Below are positions 2,313-21,371 of a stretch of 26,613 bases of DNA, piece by piece; the stretch's first letter is position 1; every line of letters begins with the position of its first letter. Under the pieces are notes generated by a model that was not told the DNA's origin, made no database searches, and was given only the letters and a program-made list of their open reading frames with translations. Source of the DNA: a virus; IMG/VR virus record IMGVR_UViG_3300037193_000301, positions 1 through 26,613 of that record; one strand, given 5' to 3'. The translations under genes and the position numbers were made by a program.

Positions 2313-3296
2313 ATGAGCAAGAAGGCAAAACCGAAACCGCCGAAAATCAAGTGGAAGTGGAGGACGGCACAGCTCCGCTTCTTCTGGTACTGGATCAACG
2401 AGCGGCACAAGATATACGAGGCCCGTAAAGCGGGCAAGGCGTTTCCATGGACGACGGACAAGATACTCTGCGAGTACAAGTTCACGAATCCATTCAGGCA
2501 GCATGACCGGGTCACGCAGGAGTGGACCAAGCGATACATATCGCTGCTCGGTTCGCAGAAGGATCTGAAGGACGAAGACTTGTTGTTTCATGTCTGCATG
2601 TTTCGGCTGTTCAACTGGCCGGACACCTACGACGCTCTGCACTTCGGCATGCGCAAGTGGGATCTCAAGAAGGCCATCGAGATCCTGCATGCACGCAAGA
2701 AGGAGGGCAAGCAGATCTTCACTGGCGCGTACATCATCCCGTCTGCCGGCAAGCCGGACAAGGCGAAGACGATTGCCGAGGCGCTTGAGAAGATATGGGA
2801 TGGCCGGACTGAGAAGGAAATAGAAGACAAGAAGAAACCGACTCGCGTCCTGTTCGCTCGCAAGATCAAGCGCAAGCAGTCCATGAAGTTTGCGACGCAG
2901 CTATTGCAGAAGATACCGACGGTTGGCCCGTTCATCGCGTATGAAATCGTGTGCGACCTTCGGCATACGAGGCTGCTGGCCGATGCGCGAGACAAGCTCG
3001 CATGGGCCAACGCTGGTCCAGGCGCGATGCGTGGCATTCATCGTTTGCTATGGGGAACGTATGAAGTGCCCGACGGAAAGGAACGGCCAGACTACAACCG
3101 CGCCATGCGAGCGCTGTTGAAGATGGCACCACGCAAGTTGAGCAAGGCAGTGAAGACTTGCGGTACTCCATTCGAGATGCGAGAGATCGAGCACTCGTTA
3201 TGCGAGTTCGATAAGTACATGCGCCTCAAGCGCAAGGAAGGCAAGACGCGCAGCAAATTCACCGCACCAGTACAGGAGCAACTTCCGTGGGATTGA
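2313..3296 (+). CDS. DNA base hypermodification protein, HMUDK_hel / aGPT-PPlase type
   Basis: 327 residues. The N-terminal third carries the signature I associate with the helical domain of 5-hydroxymethyl-dU DNA kinases and alpha-glutamyl/putrescinyl-thymine pyrophosphorylases: FFWYWINERHKIYEARKAG, then PWTTDKILCEYKFTNPFRQ and HDRVTQEW at about residues 23-71. A helix-hairpin-helix-like segment (LLQKIPTVGPFIAYEIVCDL, about 197-216) recalls the DNA glycosylase fold to which these enzymes are related. In known phages the family acts on hydroxymethyluracil already in DNA, activating it or displacing pyrophosphate with a nucleophile. No Walker A motif is present, so this protein lacks the kinase half found in 5-HMUDK; any phosphorylation must come from another protein. 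The N-terminus is very Lys-rich. The start ATG 2313 has AAGGG upstream. The fold family is fairly sure; the reaction is not. Confidence 0.75.
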   Translation: MSKKAKPKPPKIKWKWRTAQLRFFWYWINERHKIYEARKAGKAFPWTTDKILCEYKFTNPFRQHDRVTQEWTKRYISLLGSQKDLKDEDLLFHVCMFRLFNWPDTYDALHFGMRKWDLKKAIEILHARKKEGKQIFTGAYIIPSAGKPDKAKTIAEALEKIWDGRTEKEIEDKKKPTRVLFARKIKRKQSMKFATQLLQKIPTVGPFIAYEIVCDLRHTRLLADARDKLAWANAGPGAMRGIHRLLWGTYEVPDGKERPDYNRAMRALLKMAPRKLSKAVKTCGTPFEMREIEHSLCEFDKYMRLKRKEGKTRSKFTAPVQEQLPWD

Positions 3297-3571
3297 TCAA
3301 GAGCAAAGTCAAGATGAAGCAGGAGCCCGACGTTATCAAGAAGCCTCAGACAGCTTCTTACGACGTCGTGCCAGACGGCACGGCAGTAGAAGACATGACT
3401 ACTGCCAGATCACTGTTTGGCACGTCCAGAGTGTGCAAGGTGGTGCGCCACGAAGTGAAGGTCACCGTGCGCTATCTGGTTGAGTACGAGAACGGCGAGC
3501 GCCAGTGGCGCACCGCCCAAGAGCCTGAGATCGAGCACAGCGACAACGACGACGAAGACGACCTGGAGTAG
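3287..3571 (+). CDS. Small acidic-tailed protein, unknown function
   Basis: The start GTG at 3287 overlaps the end of the hypermodification gene by ten bases and has AGGAG eight bases upstream, so I prefer it to the ATG at 3314. The product is 94 residues. A basic N-terminus (KSKVKMKQ) leads to a two- or three-strand segment (RVCKVVRHEVKVTVRYLVEYENGERQW) that looks like a small beta barrel or SH3/Tudor-like fold. An extreme acidic tail ends the protein (HSDNDDEDDLE). No family is recognised. The overlap with the upstream gene suggests coupled translation and perhaps a shared role in DNA modification. Confidence 0.65.
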   Translation: MGLIKSKVKMKQEPDVIKKPQTASYDVVPDGTAVEDMTTARSLFGTSRVCKVVRHEVKVTVRYLVEYENGERQWRTAQEPEIEHSDNDDEDDLE

Positions 3572-3574
3572 CAA

Positions 3575-3910
3575 ATGAACAAGCCGCTAGGGTGTAGTTG
3601 CGATCGGGGCATAGATCGTAGATGCCCGGTTCACCGCCGGCGATACATGCTATCGTCGTTCATCATGAAAGCGTTGATGATGAGCGCGCTGCTCACGTTA
3701 TGTTTCTTCTTTGGGAGTTACGTAGAGAGGCAGAAGGCGCTCAAGCCGGTGGACCATGTGACGTGCAGCACAGACGACGTGCTGTCCGAAAGGCAGTGGC
3801 GCGTCGACTTGAAAGTGCCACTGTTCGATCAGGACTGTTCTCAACACGATTCGTTTCCAAGTAAGATCCTTTGTGAGAGGTTGGTGACGATAGAGTGCGA
3901 CCTGCCGTAA
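3575..3910 (+). CDS. Small single-pass membrane protein with Cys motifs
   Basis: 111 residues from ATG 3575 with GGAG upstream. The N-terminus has a Cys/His cluster (CSCDRGIDRRCPVH, residues 7-20) followed by an Arg patch. One transmembrane segment spans about residues 26-50 (ALMMSALLTLCFFFGSYV). The C-terminal 60 residues hold four Cys, compatible with disulfides if this part is periplasmic, as the positive-inside rule suggests. No family is recognised. A role in inner-membrane takeover or superinfection exclusion is possible, but nothing specific supports it. Confidence 0.65.
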   Translation: MNKPLGCSCDRGIDRRCPVHRRRYMLSSFIMKALMMSALLTLCFFFGSYVERQKALKPVDHVTCSTDDVLSERQWRVDLKVPLFDQDCSQHDSFPSKILCERLVTIECDLP

Positions 3911-3962
3911 GGCGACAGTCGCAATGACCGTATTTGTTTATAACCTAACGGAGACTAGAGTT

Positions 3963-4286
3963 ATGTCGCTTGAAGTTATGCAGACGTTGGAAGGTTGCGG
4001 CGTGAAGGTCGTGCAGTCACTCACCGCCGTCGAGTCCAACATCCTGGATGTGTTGGTTGGCAACCAAGGCAAGATCGTTTCCAAAGCCGAGATCGAAGAT
4101 ACGGTCTACGGCGGCAGCGACAAGATCAAGCCGGCCTCCAACTGTGTCGAAGTGTTCGTGGCCCGCTTGCGCAAGAAGCTGACCGACCGCAAGGTGGTCC
4201 GCACCGTACGCGGCAAAGGCTATATGGTGGTGCTGCCTGAGCCGGTAGCAGACGCCATGCCGCAGGCCGAAGCGGCTGTAGGGTAA
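3963..4286 (+). CDS. Stand-alone OmpR/PhoB-type winged-helix DNA-binding protein
   Basis: Residues 20-95 match the Trans_reg_C winged helix of OmpR/PhoB response regulators: LTAVESNILDVLVGNQGKIV, then SKAEIEDTVYGG, the recognition helix NCVEVFVARLRKKL and the wing VRTVRGKGYMVV. There is no receiver domain, so it is not a phosphorelay protein; 107 residues cover just the DNA-binding part plus a short Ala-rich tail. I chose ATG 3963, with GGAG at 3950-3953, over an in-frame ATG at 3924. A TATAAC at 3939-3944 could be a -10 element, but no convincing -35 is seen. A terminator follows. It is probably a phage transcription regulator; the target sites are unknown. Confidence 0.82.
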   Translation: MSLEVMQTLEGCGVKVVQSLTAVESNILDVLVGNQGKIVSKAEIEDTVYGGSDKIKPASNCVEVFVARLRKKLTDRKVVRTVRGKGYMVVLPEPVADAMPQAEAAVG

Positions 4287-4296
4287 GTGTCCAGTT

Positions 4297-4331
4297 CCGT
4301 GCGCGTCGATGTGGCGCGCACGGTTCCTTCT
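4297..4331 (+). terminator. Probable rho-independent terminator after the winged-helix gene
   Basis: Arms 4297-4305 and 4315-4323 (CCGTGCGCG/CGCGCACGG) pair perfectly over nine bases around a nine-base loop, followed by TTCCTTCT. The hairpin starts ten bases after the stop codon. The next gene's ribosome-binding site lies just downstream, so any read-through would still serve it. The T tract is interrupted, which suggests partial termination. Confidence 0.6.
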
Positions 4332-4347
4332 CAGCGGAGGGTATGGC

Positions 4348-4557
4348 ATGAGTCAGTTTGAAGATGAGATGGCCGCACTAGAGGCGACACGTTGCCCAAC
4401 GTGCAAAGGCTCAGGCGCGTTGGATGATGCAGAGGATGGCGACATCTTCTATCACACGTGGACGTGCGACCACTGCAAAGGCACTGGCAAGAAACCGGAG
4501 ATCAAACATGAGCATAGAGCAGCTGAGGTCGATAAGACAGTCGAAGTTACGACGTAG
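4348..4557 (+). CDS. Small DnaJ-type zinc-finger protein
   Basis: 69 residues from ATG 4348, with GGAGGG seven bases upstream. Two CxxCxGxG motifs (CPTCKGSG at residues 16-23 and CDHCKGTG at 40-47) are the hallmark of one DnaJ-type zinc site, here as a minimal pair rather than the four repeats of true DnaJ. Many phages and bacteria encode such isolated fingers; they may bind protein or nucleic acid, and the precise role is unknown. The 3' end overlaps the next gene by 50 bases in another frame, which is long for this genome. Confidence 0.75.
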   Translation: MSQFEDEMAALEATRCPTCKGSGALDDAEDGDIFYHTWTCDHCKGTGKKPEIKHEHRAAEVDKTVEVTT

Positions 4558-4765
4558 GGCCAAGGCTTACGGCGCGAGAGTGTGCGGCAAGAACTCGCAC
4601 GCCGTACCTATTGCCTTCGTTGGCGACGTGTGGATCGATGGGTACAACGCCGCCGTCGCCGACGTGCGCAAGATAATCAAGGAAGCCGGCGGTCCCGAGC
4701 ACACCATAGGCTCTGAGATCATTCAATGGGCTGACGAGCAGGAACAGGAGACGAAGAAGAAATGA
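4508..4765 (+). CDS. Small protein of unknown function
   Basis: The best start is ATG 4508 (ribosome site CCGGAG about ten bases upstream), giving 85 residues; the frame is open further upstream, but that stretch lies wholly inside the zinc-finger gene. The product begins with a basic helix (SIEQLRSIRQSKLRRRAKAY), continues with a hydrophobic strand (AVPIAFVGDVWIDGYNAAV) and ends in a Glu/Lys tail. No family is recognised. Its TGA overlaps the ATG of the glycosyltransferase gene, so the two are probably translationally coupled. Confidence 0.65.
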   Translation: MSIEQLRSIRQSKLRRRAKAYGARVCGKNSHAVPIAFVGDVWIDGYNAAVADVRKIIKEAGGPEHTIGSEIIQWADEQEQETKKK

Positions 4766-5724
4766 GAACAGCAGTTTGGACATTCATTCAACCGCGTGAC
4801 ACAAGCATAACGCCATCCGACAAGATTGCGCGGCTCGTCGCAGAGTTGGCGAAGGCTCCGCTCGTATGGAACGAAGAGTGGGCCGGAAAGTGGAAGGCCA
4901 AGCACACGGACGTTCTGTTCATCGTGAACGGCGTGTTCGCCTTCTGCAAGAACCTGCCTGCCGTAGCGCCAGCAGTGCGCAAGGCTAAGCGTGTCATCTG
5001 GGTTCAGAACGACTACGCCATCATCCCGCCGAAGTCATCCTCGAAAGGGGAGAGCCCATTCCGAGCCGCGTTCCGTGAACGCATGGAAGCTGGCCTGCCA
5101 GAGATGGAGTTCTGGACGACCGTCGAGGAATCGTTGCAGTCGAAGCGCGACTACTACGTCAATTGGAATGCCATGGCTTACGAGCCGTTGGGCCTCAAGC
5201 CGGTCAAGGCTGTATCGCCAGTGGCCGACAAAGCCGTGTACTACGGATACTTCCGTGACTACCGACGCGACTCGTTCGACCGCTACTTCGCCAAGGGAGG
5301 CGACTGGATCGACGTGGCCTCGCCGAGCAAGGACTTCCCGAAGCTATATCCGAAGCTGAACATCATCGCTCCAATCAAGGGCGACAAGTGGCTCATGCAG
5401 TTGCGCAAGTACGGAGCCGGTTTGTACATTGAAGACAAACGTCAGCACACGGAATACCACAGCCCAGCGACGCGATTCTTCGAAATGCTCAGTGCAGGGT
5501 TGCCCATTGCATTCGACGAGCAGTGTGCTCGAACGTTCGACAAGTTCAACGAGTTCGGTGGGTACGACATCGACATAGATCCGTTCATTGTCTGCAACCG
5601 TAAGGAGCTGAAGACATTCATCAAGCATCGATACGAAATCGCTAAACTACAACACCAGTGGCATCGTGACTTCGAAGGTGATCTTCGTGGCCGCGTCAAG
5701 AAGTTAATGAAGAAGGTGCTATGA
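4762..5724 (+). CDS. GT-B-like glycosyltransferase
   Basis: 320 residues. An N-terminal half with alternating beta/alpha elements (TDVLFIVNGVFAFCKN, KRVIWVQNDYAIIPP) is followed by a C-terminal half with the nucleotide-sugar binding pattern of GT-B enzymes: VYYGYFRDYRRDSFDRYF at about 155-172 and PATRFFEMLSAGLPIAFDE at about 233-251, where Arg and Glu normally contact the donor. The family is not one I can name. The gene is joined by ATGA overlaps to its neighbours and sits between the hypermodification protein and the thymidylate-synthase homologue. Glycosylation of hydroxymethyluracil in DNA is the natural hypothesis. Modification of a surface glycan or a phage structural protein is the alternative. 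Confidence 0.65.
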   Translation: MRTAVWTFIQPRDTSITPSDKIARLVAELAKAPLVWNEEWAGKWKAKHTDVLFIVNGVFAFCKNLPAVAPAVRKAKRVIWVQNDYAIIPPKSSSKGESPFRAAFRERMEAGLPEMEFWTTVEESLQSKRDYYVNWNAMAYEPLGLKPVKAVSPVADKAVYYGYFRDYRRDSFDRYFAKGGDWIDVASPSKDFPKLYPKLNIIAPIKGDKWLMQLRKYGAGLYIEDKRQHTEYHSPATRFFEMLSAGLPIAFDEQCARTFDKFNEFGGYDIDIDPFIVCNRKELKTFIKHRYEIAKLQHQWHRDFEGDLRGRVKKLMKKVL

Positions 5725-6482
5725 CAGATATGAAGAACACTAGTCCCTTTGGGGCAGGACGGAAGCTGGTCTCCTATGCAAAGATAAGCGAGCGGTCACG
5801 GACACCGCTCTACGGAGTTCGCAGGCTCGACAGCCCGCGCTTTGCGCTTCCATTGTTAGTTACTGGCAATGGCAGGAGTGGGACGACGTGGCTTGCCAAG
5901 ACGTTCAAGAAGGCAGGCATCGACTGTCCGCATGAACACTGCGGTCAGCACGGTACGGTGAGTTGGTACTTCTTCGCAGATAGCAATTGGCATCCGTACC
6001 ACGTGAGTCACGCGCCGGTAGGACGTGTGATTCATATGGGTGAGCGACGCAGCGACTTCAAGTTCGACTACGTCGTGCAGCTCATCAGGAACCCCTTGAA
6101 GGTCATCGGCTCCATGAGCCGCGTGATGTCTATGACCGACCATTGGTATGCCGTGGACAACCGTGCATACTCGTCTGAGATCTACAATGACAATCAAGCA
6201 TCGCGATTGCTGAAGACGATGCATATGGCGCACGGCATCTGGGCGAAGACGCTCGGCCAGTCCGACATGACCATACGGCTGGAGGACGTGGGCAAGAAGT
6301 GGTCGACGCTCATGATGATGCTCGGGCAAGACAAGAAGCTGCCGATGCCCGAAGTGGAGCCGACTAACAAGAGCAGCGGTATCTACAAAGCCAACGTGGT
6401 GACCTACGCCATGATGGAACGTGAAGACAGGGCGCTGGCGAAGCACATCGCCAGAATTGCAACAAGGTTCGATTACAACTGA
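5721..6482 (+). CDS. Sulfotransferase-like P-loop protein
   Basis: 253 residues. A beta strand then the loop GNGRSGTTWLAKTF (residues 49-62) matches the 5'-phosphosulfate-binding loop of PAPS-dependent sulfotransferases. RNPLKVIGSMSR (123-134) matches their 3'-phosphate-binding element, with the conserved Arg and Ser in place. Several His residues between them (HEHCGQHG, HPYHVSH) could include the catalytic base. Length is normal for the superfamily. The same fold also occurs in other P-loop transferases and kinases. The gene overlaps the glycosyltransferase by ATGA and precedes the synthase homologue by eleven bases, hence probably the same pathway. A sulfated or phosphorylated sugar on a DNA base would be novel and is only inference. 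Confidence 0.7.
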   Translation: MTDMKNTSPFGAGRKLVSYAKISERSRTPLYGVRRLDSPRFALPLLVTGNGRSGTTWLAKTFKKAGIDCPHEHCGQHGTVSWYFFADSNWHPYHVSHAPVGRVIHMGERRSDFKFDYVVQLIRNPLKVIGSMSRVMSMTDHWYAVDNRAYSSEIYNDNQASRLLKTMHMAHGIWAKTLGQSDMTIRLEDVGKKWSTLMMMLGQDKKLPMPEVEPTNKSSGIYKANVVTYAMMEREDRALAKHIARIATRFDYN

Positions 6483-6493
6483 GGAGAAGTTGG

Positions 6494-7663
6494 ATGGCAA
6501 CGTATGTCAGTCATGTCCGCAACGTCAACGAGGCGTTCGCTGAGTTGATGCGCTTGGCGAGCAACCCGTCGGTATGGCGCAAGGTGTCGCCTCGTGGTAT
6601 GGAGACACTTGAGTTTCGTGGCACGTTCATCACGGAGTACTCGCATCCATTCGAGCGCGTGCTGTTCAGCGCGGTGCGTGATGCGAATCCGTTCTTCCAT
6701 TTCATGGAGTCGTTGTGGATCATGGCTGGCAGGGACGACGTTGCGTTCCTGAACCAGTTCAACTCCAACATCGGCACCTATAGCGACGATGGCAAGACGT
6801 TCAACGCGCCGTATGGCTACAGGCTGCGCAAGCATTTCGAACGCTTCGTTAGTCGAAGCATTACGTTCGGCGATGGCGTAGCTCGCGAAGAAAACTACGA
6901 GACAGTAGATCAGATTGCCGAGGTGATCGACCTGCTTCGTCGTGAGCCTGATACTCGTCGTGCGGTGCTGTGCCTCTGGGATCCAATCAAGGATTTGAAT
7001 CGCGACAGCAAGGACATACCGTGCAACGACTTGGTCGCGTTCAAGCTTCGCGATGGCGCTTTGGACATGACTGTTATGAACAGGTCCAACGACGCCATGT
7101 GGGGAGCGTATGGCGCTAACGCGGTTCAGTTCAGTGTGCTGCATGAGTTCGTTGCATGCGCCGTCGATGTGCTGGTTGGCAACTACCGACAGATCAGCGA
7201 CAGCTTCCACGTGTACACGTCGCAGCTGACTTGGCAGAAGTGCGTCGCAGTGCTGAATGACAAGGGCTTCGTGAACGAGCTGGTCGAGAACCCGTATGTA
7301 GACAACATGGGTCGAGCGCGGCTGAACACGGTCAAGTTGTTCGAGAGGGCGAACAACTGGCAGGAGTGGCTCGTGCAGAACGCCATGTTCCTGAACCAGG
7401 ATTTGCACCCAGACGTTCACAACGTACTGCCGTTCTTCACAAACGTGGCCGAGCCCATCTGGAGCGCATGGGCAGCGTACAAGAACGAAGCGCTCATCAG
7501 CGACAAGAACCGTCGCATCGACGTGGCGCAGCTGAAGGTCAGCAGATGCGAAGCCGAGGACTGGAGGCTTGCATGCTGCGCATGGCTGGAGCGCAGAAGG
7601 CCGAACGTCGACGAGCGCGTCGCCATTCCGGCCGTGGAGCCGTGGGGCAAAGATCGTCCATGA
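6494..7663 (+). CDS. Thymidylate synthase homologue, probable dUMP hydroxymethylase
   Basis: 389 residues, preceded by GAGGAG. The thymidylate-synthase fold is clear: FMESLWIMAGRDDVAFLNQF (Glu72, matching E. coli Glu58), DTRRAVLCLWDP (Arg155/156, matching Arg126/127), catalytic Cys177 in IPCNDL, RSNDAMWGAYGANAVQFS (Arg197, Ser198, Asp200, Asn209) and FHVYTSQL (His239, Tyr241). Asn209 corresponds to Asn177 of E. coli, which selects uracil over cytosine; dCMP hydroxymethylases have Asp there, so dUMP is the likely substrate. The usual PCH is PCN here. A divergent extension of over 100 residues follows the core. In phages with hydroxymethyluracil such homologues hydroxymethylate dUMP. Plain thymidylate synthesis cannot be excluded. 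Coupled to the next gene by ATGA. Confidence 0.85.
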   Translation: MATYVSHVRNVNEAFAELMRLASNPSVWRKVSPRGMETLEFRGTFITEYSHPFERVLFSAVRDANPFFHFMESLWIMAGRDDVAFLNQFNSNIGTYSDDGKTFNAPYGYRLRKHFERFVSRSITFGDGVAREENYETVDQIAEVIDLLRREPDTRRAVLCLWDPIKDLNRDSKDIPCNDLVAFKLRDGALDMTVMNRSNDAMWGAYGANAVQFSVLHEFVACAVDVLVGNYRQISDSFHVYTSQLTWQKCVAVLNDKGFVNELVENPYVDNMGRARLNTVKLFERANNWQEWLVQNAMFLNQDLHPDVHNVLPFFTNVAEPIWSAWAAYKNEALISDKNRRIDVAQLKVSRCEAEDWRLACCAWLERRRPNVDERVAIPAVEPWGKDRP

Positions 7664-8355
7664 ACATACTCAACACTCCACGCATCATTGCGCATCGAGG
7701 ATGTGGCACGCTGGCTCCAGAAAACACACTGGAGGCTGTAGCCAAAGCGGCTGACCTGGGAATACGTGGCGTCGAGATTGACGTGCACGTTACCGACGAC
7801 GGCATTCCAGTCGTTCATCACAACACTGCGCTCAAAGACGGCAGACGCATCATGGACATGAACTCGTGTGACCTGCCTGCCACGGTCAGGCAGCTTCGAG
7901 ACATCTTACGATACTGCCACGTGAGAAGCATCTGGGTCAACGTCGATGCGAAGTTTGAACGTCGCGACAGGGAGACCGAGATGGCGGCGCACATGAGGGC
8001 CATGGCAATGGGGCGTATCATCGCTGAGTTGATGGCGATGTACGCTCCAAAGCCGTACGCGCCTAACATGCTATCGTCATTCAACAACTCCGTGCTCGCC
8101 GGAGCGGTCACAGTAGCTCGCGACCGTTTGTTGATAGCGGCCATCATGTTCAAGCCAACCGCATCGTTGAGAACAGGTGACCCGCCAGAAAACATCGTCA
8201 TCCCTGCATACCTACAGCACGCGACAGGCTTCGAGGAACTTGCGCGAGATCACAACGTATGGGTATGGGACAAGGAAGTCAACAAGACCGACGCGAACGC
8301 ACTGTTCCGCGCCGGAGTCATTGGCATTATTACTGATCGACCAGATCTTCTGTGA
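7660..8355 (+). CDS. Glycerophosphodiester phosphodiesterase-like protein
   Basis: I start this at ATG 7660, which overlaps the preceding TGA (ATGA); the frame is open further upstream, but that part is the synthase gene. The product has 231 residues. GDPD signatures are in order: AHRGCGTLAPENTLEA (His12, Arg13, Glu21, Asn22), GVEIDVHVTDDGIPVVHHN (Glu39, Asp41, His53) and VNVDAKFE (Lys98). At the C-terminus VWVWDKEVNKTDANALFRAG and GIITDRPDLL match the end of the TIM barrel. His54 replaces the usual Asp after the second catalytic His. No signal peptide, so it is cytoplasmic. The family cleaves glycerophosphodiesters to an alcohol and glycerol 3-phosphate. Its place beside base-modification genes could mean phosphodiester chemistry on the modification or turnover of host lipid headgroups. 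Confidence 0.85.
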   Translation: MNILNTPRIIAHRGCGTLAPENTLEAVAKAADLGIRGVEIDVHVTDDGIPVVHHNTALKDGRRIMDMNSCDLPATVRQLRDILRYCHVRSIWVNVDAKFERRDRETEMAAHMRAMAMGRIIAELMAMYAPKPYAPNMLSSFNNSVLAGAVTVARDRLLIAAIMFKPTASLRTGDPPENIVIPAYLQHATGFEELARDHNVWVWDKEVNKTDANALFRAGVIGIITDRPDLL

Positions 8356-8363
8356 GGCTAACG

Positions 8364-8969
8364 ATGGGACACTACGCATCAGAGATGGGACATGGCGAAG
8401 ACGCTGCCCCGAAGACACCAGCGAAGCAAAAGCCGGAACAGCTGAACCTGATGGCTAATGCGCGCCAAGTGGGAGGCAACCACTACAGGAAGGGAGCCGG
8501 AGTGCTTCAGCATTGGGACGTCGTGGCGTTATTCAACCTGGACTACTTCCAAGGTAACATCTCGAAGTACACCTTCCGCTGGCGCGACAAAGCCGGCATC
8601 CAAGATTTGAATAAGGCTCGCCACTACTTGGACAAGTACATCGAGATCGAAACGGCGCGTGCCAATGGGACGTTGACGAGGTCCATTCTTGAACGAGCCA
8701 TCCTGGAGTTGGAAGAGATCGAGCAGCAGGACGACTACGCGTCGGCATTACGAGCACAGAACAATGGCGACTTTCCAGTCGACGACGTTCTCTCAGGATA
8801 CAAGTTCAACGTCATGCCTGATGAGTCGAGCGCCGTTGCTCGCAAGGATCGATGCACGCATGGCGCGGACGATTGCCCGGTACACCCTAACGGCGGTTGC
8901 CCTGCGGCCCCTGGCAGTGGGGCCGCGCCCGGTAGCCTGCCAGCAGGGGCGGCAGGGGCGGCAGGGTAG
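8364..8969 (+). CDS. DUF3310 protein, relative of the T7 gp1.7 nucleotide kinase
   Basis: The ATG at 8364, with GAGG upstream, is preferred over a GTG at 8352; the product has 201 residues. Residues 36-96 are a textbook DUF3310 domain: QVGGNHYRK, HWDVVALFNLDYFQGNISKY, FRWRDKAGIQDLNKARHYL, DKYIE. In phage T7 the DUF3310-containing gp1.7 phosphorylates dTMP and dGMP, so a kinase for (hydroxymethyl-)dUMP is attractive here, next to the synthase homologue. After an acidic middle, a CTHGADDCPVHPNGGC cluster is followed by a low-complexity Ala/Gly/Pro tail that is encoded by the beginning of the GC-rich repeat island. That tail may be an insertion-derived extension. Confidence 0.8.
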   Translation: MGHYASEMGHGEDAAPKTPAKQKPEQLNLMANARQVGGNHYRKGAGVLQHWDVVALFNLDYFQGNISKYTFRWRDKAGIQDLNKARHYLDKYIEIETARANGTLTRSILERAILELEEIEQQDDYASALRAQNNGDFPVDDVLSGYKFNVMPDESSAVARKDRCTHGADDCPVHPNGGCPAAPGSGAAPGSLPAGAAGAAG

Positions 8970-12928: not shown

Positions 12929-14935
12929 CTAAGCTGCGTCTGCAAATGCGATTGGCGGCGGTGAGAAGTTTCCTTGGTAGCGTCCAGTACCTCTCGTGAC
13001 ACGTATGTCATCGTACTGACCTGTCAGTGTCCCGAACCCTCCGCCGGTGTCTCCGTTCGTTCCAAGACGCACTCTGTTCGCCGGATAGTTAGTCGTATCC
13101 GCCGTCCAAGTGCTTCCTACTTGAGTGCCATTGTGGAACATCCGTGTGTTTGGACCATTGCGTGAAATAGCTATGTGCTGCCACGCTCCGGCAACAATCG
13201 GCGTCGCTCCTGTGATCCTTGTGACTCCGCTAACGAAGTACAACAAGTTACCTGACTGCTGGAATATAGTCGGCACCGCACTAGCTGGCCCGCGTTGATC
13301 CCAGAACATCAACGTGCCAGCGTTAGACGGTACATACAACCAGAACTCAATCGTGAAGTCGTCTGTGCCAAATCCCCATTCTGCGCCACCATCAGAGTTC
13401 ACCTGATTCGTCGATGACGCACCAGTGAACTGCAACGACGCGCTGCCGAATCTGGCAATGGCCGTGTCGAGCAAACCGCCGTTCGCGCCATTCGTCCAGG
13501 TGCGGCCAGCGATCTGATCCGTGTAGACAGTCTGTCCATCGACACCGTCCCAATGGTTGAGAGAAATAACGTTGTCGAAGAACGGGTCGCCAACACGGTT
13601 CGGATGCGGGCGCATCGGCGGCTGGAAGTCGCTGACGTACCTCGCGAAGTTAGACGCTCTGAAGTCTTCTATCCAACCATTCAGCGTGCCAGTTCCAGCA
13701 GGCTGCGCTCCCAGTCGTATAGCCTGACTGCTGAAGTTCGTCGAGTTCGTGGCGCTTCCCGCCAACGTGCCGTTGATGAACAGACGCATGGTCGTGCCAC
13801 GTCTGCAGAGTGCGACGTGATACCATACGCCAGTCGTAGGCGACACAACGCTAGTTATAGGGTTCGCTGATACCCCGTCAAACACGCCCCACGTTCCGTT
13901 AGAACCCAATCTGTACGCGCCCCATCCGCCACCGAACGTGAAGATGAAGTTGTTGCCAGACGTCGCACTGAATCTCGTCCAGCACTCTATCGTGAAATCT
14001 CCTGTGCCCCAAGCGAAGTCGGCATCAGTCGCATCCACCCAGTCGCCTGTTCCATCAAGGCGCAACGACGCACCACCGAATCTGCTCTGCGTCGCATCGA
14101 TCGCGGCGTTGCCAGCTGGCGTCCATGTAACTCCACGTTCATCGTCGAAGTCCGTATCGAGATGCAGAATGGAAACTGCCGTGGCGAAGCGTTCATCGCT
14201 CGGGATACCGAGGTTGTCGTAGTGCGCTCGTACTGGCCTAGAGAACGTTTTCGTATACCGCGCCGCGCGCGTGATGCGCACGTCATCGATCCAACCGTTC
14301 ATATCGAAATCTGCGCCATTCGACTGCGTGCCGATCTGAAGCGTGGAGTTCGCGTTGAAGATAGTAGCCGTGCCGATGTTGCCAGTGCCAAGCAGCTGCC
14401 CGTCTACGAAGAAGTAGACAGTCGGGCCGAAGCGAACGACGCTCACGTAATACCACGTCGCCGCTGCGGGGTTCCACGCTGCTGAGAGAGTGGTAGAACC
14501 AGAGCCGTCAGTGCTATACACGAATCGAAGCGTGTTGCCATTCAACCCGAATATCCAGCCTCTCTGATTGGCAGGAGAGTTCGCCTCCCAATGAGAAACA
14601 AACGTCGCGCCTCCCGTGCCTGGATCGACGTTGAACCTCACCCAACAGTCTATGGTGAAGTCACTACTTCCAAACCCCCAATCTGCATGGTCTGGCGAAG
14701 TGATGAAATCGTCCGTTCCATCCAAGAGCAGTGACGCACCACCGAACTTGCTCTGTGCCGTGTCGATCTGCGCCCCGCCACTAGCGGTGAACACATGGCC
14801 CTTAACGTCGGTGAAAACAGTCGAGCCATCTGTTCCGTCGAGATGCAGACTCGCAACGACGTCATCCCAGAACGGGTCGCCTATAGCGCCGGCCAGCGCT
14901 CCCGGCGCACGAGAAGCTACGATGCCTGGGATCAT
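12929..14935 (-). CDS. Tail adhesin with three LamG-like jelly-roll domains
   Basis: 668 residues made of three tandem concanavalin-A/LamG-like domains at about 20-225, 243-445 and 450-662. Each begins with a LHLDGTDG-like strand, continues with FGGASLLLDGTDD and WGFGSSDFTIDCWVRF-type motifs, and ends with GWIDDVRITRAARY or equivalents (GWIEDFRASNFARY, GQYDDIRVTRGTGRY). The domains are clearly homologous but diverged. Such domains bind carbohydrates; here they would form a receptor-binding tail fibre or tip that recognises a surface glycan. The very short N-terminus (IPGIVASRAPGALAG) is the likely attachment part. The gene is coupled by ATGA to the DUF2793 gene. Confidence 0.8.
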   Translation of the reverse strand: MIPGIVASRAPGALAGAIGDPFWDDVVASLHLDGTDGSTVFTDVKGHVFTASGGAQIDTAQSKFGGASLLLDGTDDFITSPDHADWGFGSSDFTIDCWVRFNVDPGTGGATFVSHWEANSPANQRGWIFGLNGNTLRFVYSTDGSGSTTLSAAWNPAAATWYYVSVVRFGPTVYFFVDGQLLGTGNIGTATIFNANSTLQIGTQSNGADFDMNGWIDDVRITRAARYTKTFSRPVRAHYDNLGIPSDERFATAVSILHLDTDFDDERGVTWTPAGNAAIDATQSRFGGASLRLDGTGDWVDATDADFAWGTGDFTIECWTRFSATSGNNFIFTFGGGWGAYRLGSNGTWGVFDGVSANPITSVVSPTTGVWYHVALCRRGTTMRLFINGTLAGSATNSTNFSSQAIRLGAQPAGTGTLNGWIEDFRASNFARYVSDFQPPMRPHPNRVGDPFFDNVISLNHWDGVDGQTVYTDQIAGRTWTNGANGGLLDTAIARFGSASLQFTGASSTNQVNSDGGAEWGFGTDDFTIEFWLYVPSNAGTLMFWDQRGPASAVPTIFQQSGNLLYFVSGVTRITGATPIVAGAWQHIAISRNGPNTRMFHNGTQVGSTWTADTTNYPANRVRLGTNGDTGGGFGTLTGQYDDIRVTRGTGRYQGNFSPPPIAFADAA

Positions 14936-15792
14936 GCGGCCTCCGTGATGCCGAACAGATCGGCTTCATCAGCAGCGACGATCTTCACAGTGAACGTTCC
15001 TTGAGGTGGAATCACAAGCGTGCCACCCGCAGGTGGATTGATCGTCATGCCTCCGGCCTCTGTGATCGTTAACGTGCCCGATCCCGTGTATCGACCATGA
15101 TACTCCGCCCCAATCTCGAAGCCTTCGGCATCGTCGAAAGTGTACGTCGCAGCGGCGTCGCTGAAGCGCGTGTACTGGCCGGCGTTACTCGCCGTCGCGT
15201 CGGTATTCACCGCCGCAGTGTTAACGACCTCGGGTCCTCGTAACTGCAAGAGGCCAGAATTTGGAGACAGCTCCGTGAGCCTGAACTCTGTCCCAAGTAG
15301 AAGCGCTCCAAGTTGCACAGACGTGGCCGGACTACCGTCGGTTGCTTCGACAGTGGGCGAAATGAATTGCACCCACGACAGGCTCTGACGGAAGTACGCC
15401 TCGCCGTCGTTCGGCGCATCACCGAGGCCAGCAGCGAGAACCCAAGACGGCGGCGACCCGTCTACCCACTTGTACAGGTTGCCGTCTTCCAGATTGATGA
15501 TCAGCGATGCCTCACTGCCAGCTTCGAAGAACTGCCAGTAGTCACCTTCCTCGACATAACGAGCCAGATCAAGCTCGTGCCCTGCCCAATCGCCCGTCGC
15601 AACGCCGCCAGTCCCGGCAACGATATAGAGCGCTCCGTCATCGATTGGCGATCCTGGAGGTGCGTTCAAATCCATTGCAATGACCGCTGTCTGCAGCAAC
15701 GCGTCGATGAAGTTCAACGCGAGGTTAAGGCCAGCAGCCGGATCTAACGTGCCCTCCGGCACGTAAGGAATATGCTTGTTCGGAGTTGTCAT
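14932..15792 (-). CDS. DUF2793-type tail fibre or baseplate protein
   Basis: 286 residues, ATG 15792 overlapping the hub gene stop by ATGA. The first 100 residues match the DUF2793 pattern: TLDPAAGLNLALNFIDALLQ, then APPGSPIDDGALYIVAGTG, TGDWAGHELDLARY and GDYWQFFEAGSEASLIINLEDGNLYKW. In other phages this domain precedes fibre or receptor-binding regions. The C-terminal half is beta-rich and ends in TGSGTLTITEAGGMTINPPAGG, which looks like a small bead or tip. It probably links the tail hub to the LamG adhesin encoded next. Confidence 0.75.
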   Translation of the reverse strand: MTTPNKHIPYVPEGTLDPAAGLNLALNFIDALLQTAVIAMDLNAPPGSPIDDGALYIVAGTGGVATGDWAGHELDLARYVEEGDYWQFFEAGSEASLIINLEDGNLYKWVDGSPPSWVLAAGLGDAPNDGEAYFRQSLSWVQFISPTVEATDGSPATSVQLGALLLGTEFRLTELSPNSGLLQLRGPEVVNTAAVNTDATASNAGQYTRFSDAAATYTFDDAEGFEIGAEYHGRYTGSGTLTITEAGGMTINPPAGGTLVIPPQGTFTVKIVAADEADLFGITEAA

Positions 15793-17459
15793 GCTACGAT
15801 AACCTCGACCGACGGACCGTCGCCCGTCAAGTCATTCTGTTGAACCACACTAACCGTAATCGGCGAAGACGATAGCGCCGACACGTTTTGCGTCAGCCCT
15901 TGTGCGTCCGTTTCAACAACGATGTTGGGGTTCACATCGTCGCTGAATGTAACCTTGTATCCCGCGAAGCGTGCGCCATGCGCCACAGACCCGCCGCCTC
16001 CAAGCCTCCCGACTCCCTGCCATGACACAATCATGTTCGAGCCTTCACGACGTGCCATGAGGTATCCCACTCGACGCTCGATCTGCGTACGACCGACGTA
16101 TGTGAATGTCACAACAGTTCCAGTGTCCACGCTCGTGCCGAACGAAGTGGCTCGCAACGTTATACTACGACCGATGTCTGTCACGCTTGCAGGTTCAAGA
16201 CTGATGAACCCACGCTCCAGCAGCACGAACCGTTCGCCAATGCCGTGCGACGTCGACAACGTTCCAAGCCTGCCGCGCAAGAAGCCTGACAGTTCCCACA
16301 GGCCAGTGCTGACCTCGTTGGCAGTTTCGAAGCAGATGATCTCATCGCCAATGATCGCTCTGTTCGCTCTGTTCTGCATTCCTTGCAGATTGGTTGAAAA
16401 CAATTCCGCATCCGCAGTATCGACGCGCACCGTAACAGTGTTGTGATAGTCGGGGTACTCAGCAGGGTGGTCGCCGAGTGCTGTCATGGTCTCGCCCATG
16501 ATCGCACTTAGCCTTGCCTCGCCAGACTCCACGTAGTTCTGACCACCGTCATAACTAAGCTCGATGGTCGCACCTTGCCACGCCGAGAAGATGCCAGCAA
16601 CGGCGATGTACAATCCGAGGCCAGTGTTGTCGTCAGCATCACGAAGTATGCTGATGTCCAACGGCTGTATCAACGTCGGACCAACGAGGCCGGACGGTGG
16701 CGGAACTTGCGGTGCAGCCGGTATACCTTGCGCGTGAGACCTGTACGCACTCTGACGATCACGCACACAAGCGTATTCCTGATAGCCGTCTTGAACGTCG
16801 ACCTTCGCGATGCGTACGCGATCCACGCGGCCATCATGCGAAACGAAGATGTTATCGGCAGTCGTTAGATGCAGCCAGCTATCCGGCAACATGAATCGCA
16901 ACTCGCCCTTAGCATCTTCGATCATCACCTTGTGATGAACCGCGATCATCTTCGCTGCTTCTTCAGAGTGCATCAACACCGGAGTCTGAATGGTCGACTC
17001 ACCAGTCGCACGACGATCACCGGATCGCTCGCTCGATTGTTTGTCAGGAGCGAGCCCACCGAAGATATCGAAGTAGCTCAGGTGTAGTACGCGCGGAATG
17101 GCAATGGGATCCGCACGTAGCTGCTGCTCGATCTCCTCCTCAGTGTCCACCATGTCGTCTTCCGTAACCGTGGCAATCGCATCAGCTCCGCGTGGCTGGA
17201 AGTGGATACGACCATCGTAGTTCGCGGGCTCGAACATATAGACTTGCGACAACGCACGCAACGCCTCAGAGGCAGGGTACGTCGCGATCACGGCAAAGCC
17301 GCGCACACGCCACTCGCGCAACTGCGAAGTGTCGAGTTGACGTGGATCCATGCCAGCACGAATGCACAGTTCAAGAACGACGTTCTCTAACGACCAAGTG
17401 CATGACTCATTTGGATCGGTAACAGTGAACGATATAAGATCGCGTACTAAATCGTACAT
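15789..17459 (-). CDS. Tail hub protein, C-terminal part (Phage-tail_3 / GTA-like)
   Basis: 556 residues starting at ATG 17459. It opens like the middle of a long GTA-type hub: SLENVVLELCIRAGMDPRQL and ASEALRALSQVYMFEPANYDG. It continues with DDMVDTEEEIEQQLRADPIA and SYFDIFGGLAPDKQ, and a terminal part with AYRSHAQGIPAAPQVPPPSG and the beta-rich CFETANEVSTGLWELSGFLR and GRLGTLSTSHGIGERFVLL. These match the Phage-tail_3 and C-terminal regions of baseplate hub proteins of siphoviruses and gene transfer agents. In relatives a single long polypeptide carries both halves. Here the N-terminal half is a separate gene (19006-20013), with two genes in between. It acts at the tail tip during adsorption and DNA delivery. 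Confidence 0.75.
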   Translation of the reverse strand: MYDLVRDLISFTVTDPNESCTWSLENVVLELCIRAGMDPRQLDTSQLREWRVRGFAVIATYPASEALRALSQVYMFEPANYDGRIHFQPRGADAIATVTEDDMVDTEEEIEQQLRADPIAIPRVLHLSYFDIFGGLAPDKQSSERSGDRRATGESTIQTPVLMHSEEAAKMIAVHHKVMIEDAKGELRFMLPDSWLHLTTADNIFVSHDGRVDRVRIAKVDVQDGYQEYACVRDRQSAYRSHAQGIPAAPQVPPPSGLVGPTLIQPLDISILRDADDNTGLGLYIAVAGIFSAWQGATIELSYDGGQNYVESGEARLSAIMGETMTALGDHPAEYPDYHNTVTVRVDTADAELFSTNLQGMQNRANRAIIGDEIICFETANEVSTGLWELSGFLRGRLGTLSTSHGIGERFVLLERGFISLEPASVTDIGRSITLRATSFGTSVDTGTVVTFTYVGRTQIERRVGYLMARREGSNMIVSWQGVGRLGGGGSVAHGARFAGYKVTFSDDVNPNIVVETDAQGLTQNVSALSSSPITVSVVQQNDLTGDGPSVEVIVA

Positions 17460-20016: not shown

Positions 20017-20433
20017 TCATTTCCACGGTCTATACACTTCAACAACCACGCGATCGTATGGCGCTGCCAACGATGTTTCTATCACGCCGTGCAAGTTGTG
20101 GGCGTGAATCAACGTGAGCCCTCCATCTGGATGATCACCAACTATAGCCATGTGCGACGGCTCGTTCTTGCTCCAAGCAATCAGAGCGATGTCCCCAGGT
20201 CGCGCTTCAGACGGCGGCAATGGCTCGCCCCATCGTGCGCGACACCCTTTACGAAGTCTATCTTCCCAAGGCTCACGACCGTATCCGTTCTCGTCGTAAG
20301 TATTCAAGCTGCTGTTCTCGCCAGCGAGAGCGATGAGCCCGATGCAATCTACGGCCCACGGCTTTCGGCCGCGATGTCTCCACTTCGCACCGAGCAGCTT
20401 TCTTGCTTCTAGTACAAACGCATCGGCGCTCAT
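20017..20433 (-). CDS. NlpC/P60 family tail-tip peptidase
   Basis: 138 residues, ATG 20433 overlapping the DUF2163 stop. Catalytic Cys30 lies in WAVDCIGLIALAG, catalytic His94 in EPSHMAIVG, and the third polar residue is His110 or His112 in LIHAHN. This is the compact single-domain form used by siphovirus tails. At the tail tip it would cleave peptidoglycan peptide stems during DNA entry. Gene order DUF2460, DUF2163, NlpC/P60, hub is a hallmark of GTA-like tails. Confidence 0.88.
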   Translation of the reverse strand: MSADAFVLEARKLLGAKWRHRGRKPWAVDCIGLIALAGENSSLNTYDENGYGREPWEDRLRKGCRARWGEPLPPSEARPGDIALIAWSKNEPSHMAIVGDHPDGGLTLIHAHNLHGVIETSLAAPYDRVVVEVYRPWK

Positions 20434-21371
20434 GGCGTGTCTCCTTCTGGAAGATCAGCAGACACATATCCGCCGCCTCCAGGAAGCTGTGCGCCAGGAG
20501 TCTGCACTTGCGAAGAGTCACCGACAGGAATCAACGGCTCGCCTTTGAAGTTCGGACCGTTGCTCCACACGCCAATGCAGTCTTCGTGATACCGCTTCAA
20601 GCAATCCGGCCTGATGCGGTACGTGTCGCCAACCTGTATGGCGTAGGCGGTCGTTTCATTCAACGTGACGACCATGCCCTCCACGTCTTCAGTGGCGAAC
20701 TCCTTGCCGGCGTTGTCGCCTGTCAGCCACTGCACACGACCGGGCATAGGTGTGATCGTCGACAGCGCGCTCGCTGTGAATATACGATCGGTTTCGGCGC
20801 CGACCGCAACAACAGATCCATTCACCCATAACGGGCCAAGAGCCACGCCGCATCCAGTCTGCTGCGCGGCATGCGAGCCAAAGATAGCGCGGCAAGTTCT
20901 GGAATACACCGAACCTACCGGTTGCTTCAGTCGCATCATGTACGACAGCAATTCTGGAATCCAGATCATGCCATACTTGGTACGAACCTCTCCTACGTCG
21001 CCGGCGTCAAGTACGATGTGCCCCATCGACAGATCTTCGAAGTTGACCAAGTAGCAAATCCATTGCGCGTCGTCGAACTCACCGGCGTTCACCATGTCGG
21101 TGTTGACTCCAGGCGTTGGAGCTTGCGTGATCAGCGCGTAACCCTCGGCGTTGTCGACAGAGTAGCCTGTGTCAGTGCTAAACGTGGATGGATCAAAGCC
21201 GTTCGTGGCGGAGTAGTTCACAACTCCACCGCCATCATCGTATGCCACATCCTTGTCTAACGTCGCCAGCCCGTAGACGAAGCCTGACTTCAGGATGATC
21301 TTCAGCAATCGACACGTCGTCGTGGCGTTCTGCTGAAGATGCGCCATCAATCTTGAAGGAACGCGTCTCAT
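20430..21371 (-). CDS. DUF2163 / BR0599-type baseplate protein
   Basis: 313 residues, ATG 21371 overlapping the DUF2460 stop. The N-terminal half shows the DUF2163 pattern (LLKIILKSGFVYGLATLDKD, NGFDPSTFSTDTGYSVDNAE, DAQWICYLVNFEDLSMGHIV). The C-terminal 80 residues show the BR0599 motif (LTGDNAGKEFATEDVEGMVV, RIRPDCLKRYHEDCIGVW, NGPNFKGEP) with paired Cys that in relatives can hold an iron-sulfur cluster or metal. It forms part of the distal tail structure. Confidence 0.85.
   Translation of the reverse strand: MRRVPSRLMAHLQQNATTTCRLLKIILKSGFVYGLATLDKDVAYDDGGGVVNYSATNGFDPSTFSTDTGYSVDNAEGYALITQAPTPGVNTDMVNAGEFDDAQWICYLVNFEDLSMGHIVLDAGDVGEVRTKYGMIWIPELLSYMMRLKQPVGSVYSRTCRAIFGSHAAQQTGCGVALGPLWVNGSVVAVGAETDRIFTASALSTITPMPGRVQWLTGDNAGKEFATEDVEGMVVTLNETTAYAIQVGDTYRIRPDCLKRYHEDCIGVWSNGPNFKGEPLIPVGDSSQVQTPGAQLPGGGGYVSADLPEGDTP

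Follow-up and report, generated by a model that had tools for sequence, protein, structure and literature searches.

Gene content of the cassette

We analyzed a 26,613-base virus record (IMG/VR record IMGVR_UViG_3300037193_000301, hereafter the window), a fragment from an uncultured bacterial virus, in which positions 2313-8969 had been read from the sequence alone as a candidate thymidine hypermodification cassette of unusual make-up. All six proteins named in this sequence-only reading were found in place as predicted proteins, on the + strand of one coupled operon: a PF18723 (HMUDK_hel, aGPT-PPlase clade 1) protein of 327 amino acids (2313-3296, Pfam profile match), a predicted DNA glycosyltransferase of 320 amino acids with no Pfam family and the fold of the beta-glucosyltransferase (BGT) of T4 (4762-5724, AlphaFold2 model and Foldseek), a sulfotransferase-like protein of 253 amino acids (5721-6482) with motifs for binding 3'-phosphoadenosine 5'-phosphosulfate (PAPS) and a sub-threshold match to PF13469, a pyrimidine hydroxymethylase of the thymidylate synthase (TS) family and of the uracil type (6494-7663; PF00303, phrog_5131 and Asn at E. 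coli position 177), a GDPD family protein of 231 amino acids (7660-8355, PF03009) and a DUF3310 (T7 gp1.7-like) protein (8352-8969, PF11753). Inspecting the sequence directly, we found ATGA junctions at 4762, 5721 and 7660, GTGA at 8352, and an 11-base gap between the sulfotransferase-like and hydroxymethylase genes. The mostly ATGA-coupled order described earlier holds at these junctions and not between the PF18723 and glycosyltransferase genes, which are kept apart by five small genes (3287-4765, + strand).

The closest relative (L002/L071, record IMGVR_UViG_3300006853_000025) has 45,051 bases and is probably complete because it has a 100-base terminal repeat. It carries the PF18723 (78% identity), glycosyltransferase (72%), sulfotransferase-like (83%), hydroxymethylase (65%) and DUF3310 (52%) genes in identical order. 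Since the GDPD gene and any counterpart of the five small genes at this place are missing from it, the conserved unit is these five genes and not six. Of the six families whose joint occurrence in other phages the sequence-only reading proposed to look for, five stand together in this relative, and GDPD was found in 0/47 related records.

Glycosyltransferase

The glycosyltransferase (4762-5724) had no family match in Pfam, PHROGs or NCBIfam, and a PDB sequence search gave no match. Neither this protein nor the sulfotransferase-like protein (5721-6482) had a match in tblastn searches against 50,697 phage records, and no cultured phage in this collection carries either of them. When IMG/VR was scanned with a profile of the glycosyltransferase, 115 relatives were confirmed, and the best 80 of them were retrieved. 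The family has about 50 distinct relatives. In a count that includes redundant loci, this BGT-fold family adjoins PF18723 in 69/89 loci and a hydroxymethylase in 66/89.

An AlphaFold2 model built from 51 sequences (pLDDT 93.4, pTM 0.90) was compared to the PDB using Foldseek, the best fold match being T4 DNA beta-glucosyltransferase (1c3j, E-value 1.8e-8, TM-score 0.65), with T4 alpha-glucosyltransferase lower in the list. The two proteins are 14% identical over the structural alignment and BLAST was not significant. A local hhalign run of the family against T4 BGT gave a global E-value of 1.7e-7, to be read as a single-pair value, and paired R165, R168, R238 and E241, kept in 50-51 of the 51 sequences, with R191, R195, R269 and E272 of BGT, which bind UDP-glucose in that enzyme. 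The model strongly points to a BGT-like DNA glycosyltransferase with a GT-B fold, and predicted glycosylation of the modified base is well supported. The family is new and has no Pfam entry.

A radical SAM-SPASM protein is often encoded directly 3' of the BGT-fold glycosyltransferase (13/43 loci, for example L090, L091, L127 and L138). In L074 (4189-6808), two BGT-fold glycosyltransferases lie by a radical SAM-like protein, with no PF18723 or TS in the retrieved stretch.

Sulfotransferase-like protein

The full alignment of the sulfotransferase-like proteins was too divergent for a profile scan, and a narrower alignment was used instead. Nine records carry the protein. In all nine, the neighbors are other DNA-hypermodification genes: eight are PF18723 loci, each with some glycosyltransferase, and the ninth is an ADDT/radical-SAM-TAGT cassette (L170). 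Outside viruses the protein is almost absent: 84,980 genomes of bacteria and archaea were scanned, and no more than four faint relatives came up.

The nine members share a 5'-phosphosulfate loop of the G-x-G-R-[SC]-G-T-T type (GNGRSGTT in the window, GTGSSGTK in L004), and eight of them, the window protein included, have the R-x7-S 3'-phosphate motif, the Ser being absent in L068. A reading of the protein as a P-loop kinase was rejected, as Walker A occurs in 0/9 members. A PDB profile search placed both PAPS motifs in register with CurM-type sulfotransferases without reaching significance, and the top ranks of the fold search were mostly PAPS sulfotransferases (E-value 0.0043 or higher). All PF13469 matches of the members fall under the cut-off (E-values of 0.0003-0.003). 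Given that miss, the protein at 5721-6482 is named sulfotransferase-like here and not filed as a member of the family; we consider PAPS-dependent transfer its likely activity. Its recurrence in hypermodification cassettes is new, and the gene orders seen are aGPT1-ST-GT-TS (L016, L068), GT-ST-TS (window) and GT-B-ST-radical SAM-TS (L004), where ST is the sulfotransferase and GT the glycosyltransferase.

The cassette of L170 (5693-11652) is a separate arrangement comprising a GATase, PF18724, a sulfotransferase fused to an N-terminal region, a P-loop kinase and a radical SAM-TAGT fusion. The idea of the sulfotransferase as a plain replacement for a kinase is weakened by this locus, which has both.

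Hydroxymethylase and DUF3310 protein

The TS-family protein (6494-7663) matches PF00303 and phrog_5131 (E-value 1e-104). It retains the catalytic Cys as well as the expected residues at the Arg, Ser, Asp, His and Tyr positions, Asn stands at the position of E. coli N177 (uracil type), and His147 is replaced by Asn, likewise in 112/118 relatives including gp58 of phage M6. The closest solved structures are CMP 5-hydroxymethylases (E-value 8e-23, versus 1.8e-10 for thymidylate synthases). These features support assigning it as a putative hydroxymethylase rather than a thymidylate synthase. The DUF3310 protein (8352-8969) matches PF11753 with 30.2 bits (cut-off 24) and PHROGs annotated as "nucleotide kinase" with E-values down to 2.8e-17; its gene comes after the hydroxymethylase gene in most related cassettes, and we propose that it acts as a kinase of 5-hydroxymethyl-dUMP (hmdUMP).

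PF18723 protein and survey of its partners

The PF18723 match of the first protein (2313-3296) has an E-value of 3.2e-59 and 201 bits (cut-off 25), so the HMUDK_hel assignment, on which the sequence-only reading had staked the cassette, stands in a profile search. Chance can be discounted at this E-value and at that of the TS-family match to phrog_5131. The product is 36% identical to gp55 of phage M6, and a PDB sequence search returned no match.

To count the partners of this family, we used 95 non-redundant PF18723 loci and recorded partner genes within 7 kb; the set was gathered partly with the glycosyltransferase as bait, and its proportions are therefore not natural frequencies. A glycosyltransferase (BGT-fold, TAGT or one of two GT-B groups) is found in 71/95 loci, a PF18748-like kinase in 32/95 and PF18724 in 7/95. 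PF18724 is always accompanied by the PF18748-like kinase (p = 3e-4) and never by a glycosyltransferase (0/7, versus 71/88 loci without PF18724, p = 3e-5). A strict exclusion between kinase and glycosyltransferase, first seen for PF18748 versus PF20691, was dropped as a general rule because the BGT-fold family and the PF18748-like kinase occur together in 14/43 loci; the exclusions that hold are TAGT versus kinase (1/26 together) and PF18724 versus any glycosyltransferase. On the PF18723 tree, we counted at least 16 state changes for the kinase, 15 for the BGT-fold enzyme, 14 for TAGT and 5 for the sulfotransferase, and the invariant residues of PF18723 are equal in kinase-only and glycosyltransferase-only loci.

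Partners are thus swapped repeatedly around a constant PF18723-hydroxymethylase core. In five distinct loci, PF18723 is paired with a TS homologue bearing Asp at position 177 (cytosine type), which suggests from sequence that it may also serve hydroxymethylcytosine. TAGT or BGT-fold glycosyltransferases lie with PF18723 by such Asp-177 homologues in L010/L011, L013 (=L160), L146 and L159.

Because PF18748 and PF18724 are absent from both the relative record and the window cassette, PF18723 is not a mark of the amine pathway. The kinase/pyrophosphorylase route that its presence had been taken to imply does not follow, as the family occurs mostly with glycosyltransferases and, in some loci, even with cytosine-type hydroxymethylases. 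Its Pfam name hints at a kinase accessory, and the survey shows it as the constant partner of kinase, TAGT, and BGT-fold or other glycosyltransferases. We infer that PF18723 would read or flip hydroxymethylpyrimidine in DNA quite generally, on behalf of exchangeable transferases, a candidate role that is directly testable.

Proposed product and alternatives

Several parts of the sequence-only reading carry over into the interpretation. The thymidine hypermodification cassette of unusual make-up holds with the PF18723 match and the uracil-specifying Asn of the TS homologue, now located at E. coli position 177; the DUF3310 assignment is confirmed by Pfam; the glycosyltransferase is strongly borne out by the T4 BGT fold match and four conserved residues. 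The sulfotransferase-like assignment gained moderately, from both PAPS motifs and the lack of Walker A, against weak family and fold scores.

From the computed gene content, families, fold, conserved residues, recurrence and absence of amine-pathway enzymes, we infer each catalytic step and their order as follows. The TS-family enzyme would convert dUMP to hmdUMP, which the DUF3310 protein and host kinases would bring to hmdUTP for incorporation into DNA by the phage polymerase. The PF18723 protein would then recognize or flip the hydroxymethyl base, the BGT-fold glycosyltransferase would glycosylate the base hydroxyl with a nucleotide sugar as donor, and the sulfotransferase would add sulfate from PAPS to that sugar, the resulting bulky, anionic base blocking restriction enzymes. 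On balance we slightly favor this full route, by which the phage DNA would come to contain a thymine analogue that bears a sugar and probably a sulfate. The most likely product would be a glycosyl-5-hydroxymethyl-dU with a sulfate ester, sulfation and its site being the conjectural part. To our knowledge, no sulfated DNA base is known; if verified, it would extend natural DNA by a new chemical class and confront restriction nucleases and modification-dependent ones with a new problem. The evidence is about evenly poised on the wider proposal that some phages naturally bear sulfate esters on DNA bases, either as a sulfated sugar on 5-hydroxymethyl-dU (hmdU) or directly on it, and that a virus-specific sulfotransferase family entered hypermodification cassettes several times.

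A number of results weigh against the favored route. The protein at 5721-6482 matches PF13469 with an E-value of 0.0033 and 18.1 bits, under the 27-bit cut-off, and its model (pLDDT 81) has a best fold E-value of 0.0043 with TM-scores of 0.26-0.41. D84 of the glycosyltransferase, conserved in 50/51 sequences after a similar strand and probably the equivalent of the catalytic D100 of BGT, was not paired with that residue by hhalign. The association between sulfotransferase and glycosyltransferase is not significant (8/8 versus 63/87 loci, p = 0.2), and one PF18723 clade keeps the sulfotransferase while the glycosyltransferase type changes, which fits a non-sugar acceptor too.

Because of that clade, we keep direct sulfation of hmdU as the main rival, albeit an improbable one: sulfate would cap some of the hmdU as an ester or activate it as a leaving group, like the 5-hmdU kinase of M6, and the glycosyltransferase would modify the remainder or displace the sulfate. 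The M6 kinase also has PF18723 as a companion, and the sulfotransferase-bearing PF18723 loci are free of the PF18748-type kinase (0/8 versus 32/87, p = 0.048), an exclusion that is statistically marginal. This scheme is opposed by the lack of a PF18724 amino-acid transferase in the relative record, by the adjoining sulfotransferase and P-loop kinase of L170, and by the constant presence of a glycosyltransferase, with which no leaving group is needed. It is likewise unlikely that the product is glycosyl-hmdU only, with a sulfotransferase-like protein that sulfates a host lipid or protein or has lost its PAPS activity. The weak family and fold scores and the missing Ser of L068 would fit this, whereas the location of the protein in a DNA-hypermodification cassette in 9/9 known records, the retention of R-x7-S in 8/9 and the near absence of relatives from bacterial and archaeal genomes (only four faint ones) speak against it.

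An integral role for the GDPD protein, for example glycerophosphodiester hydrolysis that supplies or removes a base group, is very unlikely. The family assignment of the earlier reading is secure (70.3 bits against PF03009, cut-off 23.6) and the gene is translationally coupled on both sides: its listed reading frame opens upstream of 7660, and the likely start is the ATG at 7660, which overlaps the TS stop. The gene is nonetheless missing from the relative and from the 47 related records, and its slot holds an HD phosphohydrolase or nothing in other cassettes. We therefore rejected GDPD as part of the system and regard it as probably a passenger in the operon. Least probable is the known amine pathway (kinase, pyrophosphate, amino-acid/amine transfer) with its kinase elsewhere in the genome. 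PF18723 and a hydroxymethylase are common to phage M6 and the window is a 26.6 kb fragment, yet PF18748 and PF18724 are both missing from the relative, whose record shows a terminal repeat, and PF18724 never accompanies a glycosyltransferase in the survey.

Comparison with known systems

Judged by what defines M6/ViI-type amine hypermodification, the cassette has the TS-family hydroxymethylase and PF18723 and lacks PF18748 and PF18724. Pseudomonas phage M6 (5-NedU) shares with it the TS-type hydroxymethylase, PF18723, DUF3310 and the same order by replication genes; M6 has in addition a PF18748 kinase, a PF18724 amino-acid transferase, radical SAM and PLP enzymes, in whose place the window has the BGT-fold glycosyltransferase and the sulfotransferase-like protein. 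In M6, PF18724 is gp51, the PF18748 kinase gp54, PF18723 gp55 and the TS homologue gp58; neither the M6 kinase nor gp51 had a match among the window open reading frames, and no PF18748, PF18724 or TAGT was found in the relative record (G001). Among 49 related records, PF18748 is present in 13, PF18724 in 7 and TAGT in 17.

The window glycosyltransferase shares with T4 BGT the GT-B fold and the R191/R195/R269/E272 equivalents and differs by its low identity and its pairing with a uracil-type hydroxymethylase and PF18723. The sulfotransferase-like protein has the 5'-phosphosulfate loop and R-x7-S in common with PAPS-dependent sulfotransferases (CurM/OLS ST, TPST, SULT), but is shorter, lies in a DNA-modification operon and does not match the sequence of any solved structure significantly.

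The combination had been called unfamiliar in the sequence-only reading, which holds for the BGT-fold family and the recurrent sulfotransferase, both new, and not for cassettes of the glycosyltransferase type that unite a TS with PF18723. Clusters of this type, with TS and aGPT-PPlase1, have been described in pelagiphages (PMC9599517), and we found such a cassette in the isolated Brevibacterium phage LuckyBarnes. These cassettes likewise bring together TS, PF18723 and DNA glycosyltransferases; their glycosyltransferases are TAGT (PF20691) or annotated as beta-glucosyl-HMC-alpha-glucosyltransferase, however, and no sulfotransferase is reported.

In the DNA of Bacillus phage SP-15, uracil is glucosylated and bears phosphoglucuronate (PMC5977210). 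This base resembles the proposed product as a thymine analogue with glucose and an additional negative charge (PMC5977210), but carries a phosphodiester-linked glucuronolactone on dihydroxypentyluracil, with no sulfate reported. In YerA41, an oligosaccharide-like substitution of ~1 kDa on thymidine has been described (PMC9023294). Our literature search returned nothing that ties a sulfotransferase to phage DNA modification, within a scope that excluded the founding papers (Lee 2018, Lee 2022, Iyer 2013, Pyle 2024), where an earlier mention is possible. The glycosyltransferase family, with ~50 distinct relatives, offers new tools for the glycosylation of DNA.

Other genes of the window and of related cassettes

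The five small genes between PF18723 and the glycosyltransferase (3287-3571, 3575-3910, 3924-4286, 4309-4557 and 4424-4765, all + strand) are probably an insertion. Two of them (3924-4557) encode a winged-helix regulator domain (3924-4286) and a zinc-finger, Q-antiterminator-like protein (4309-4557), which possibly regulate the operon.

Genes for an APH-like kinase and a HAD phosphatase were found in the PF18723 cassettes of L003 (5980-7933), L008 (13436-15347) and L018 (13914-15265), and L003 and L008 also encode a MobA-like nucleotidyltransferase. Together these genes resemble a pathway by which the phage itself would make an activated sugar or alcohol.

Elsewhere in the window, an ECF-type sigma factor gene (1154-1651) lies upstream of the cassette, and a structural module on the - strand (12929-14935, 15789-17459 and 20430-21371) encodes a LamG-rich protein and gene-transfer-agent-like baseplate proteins.

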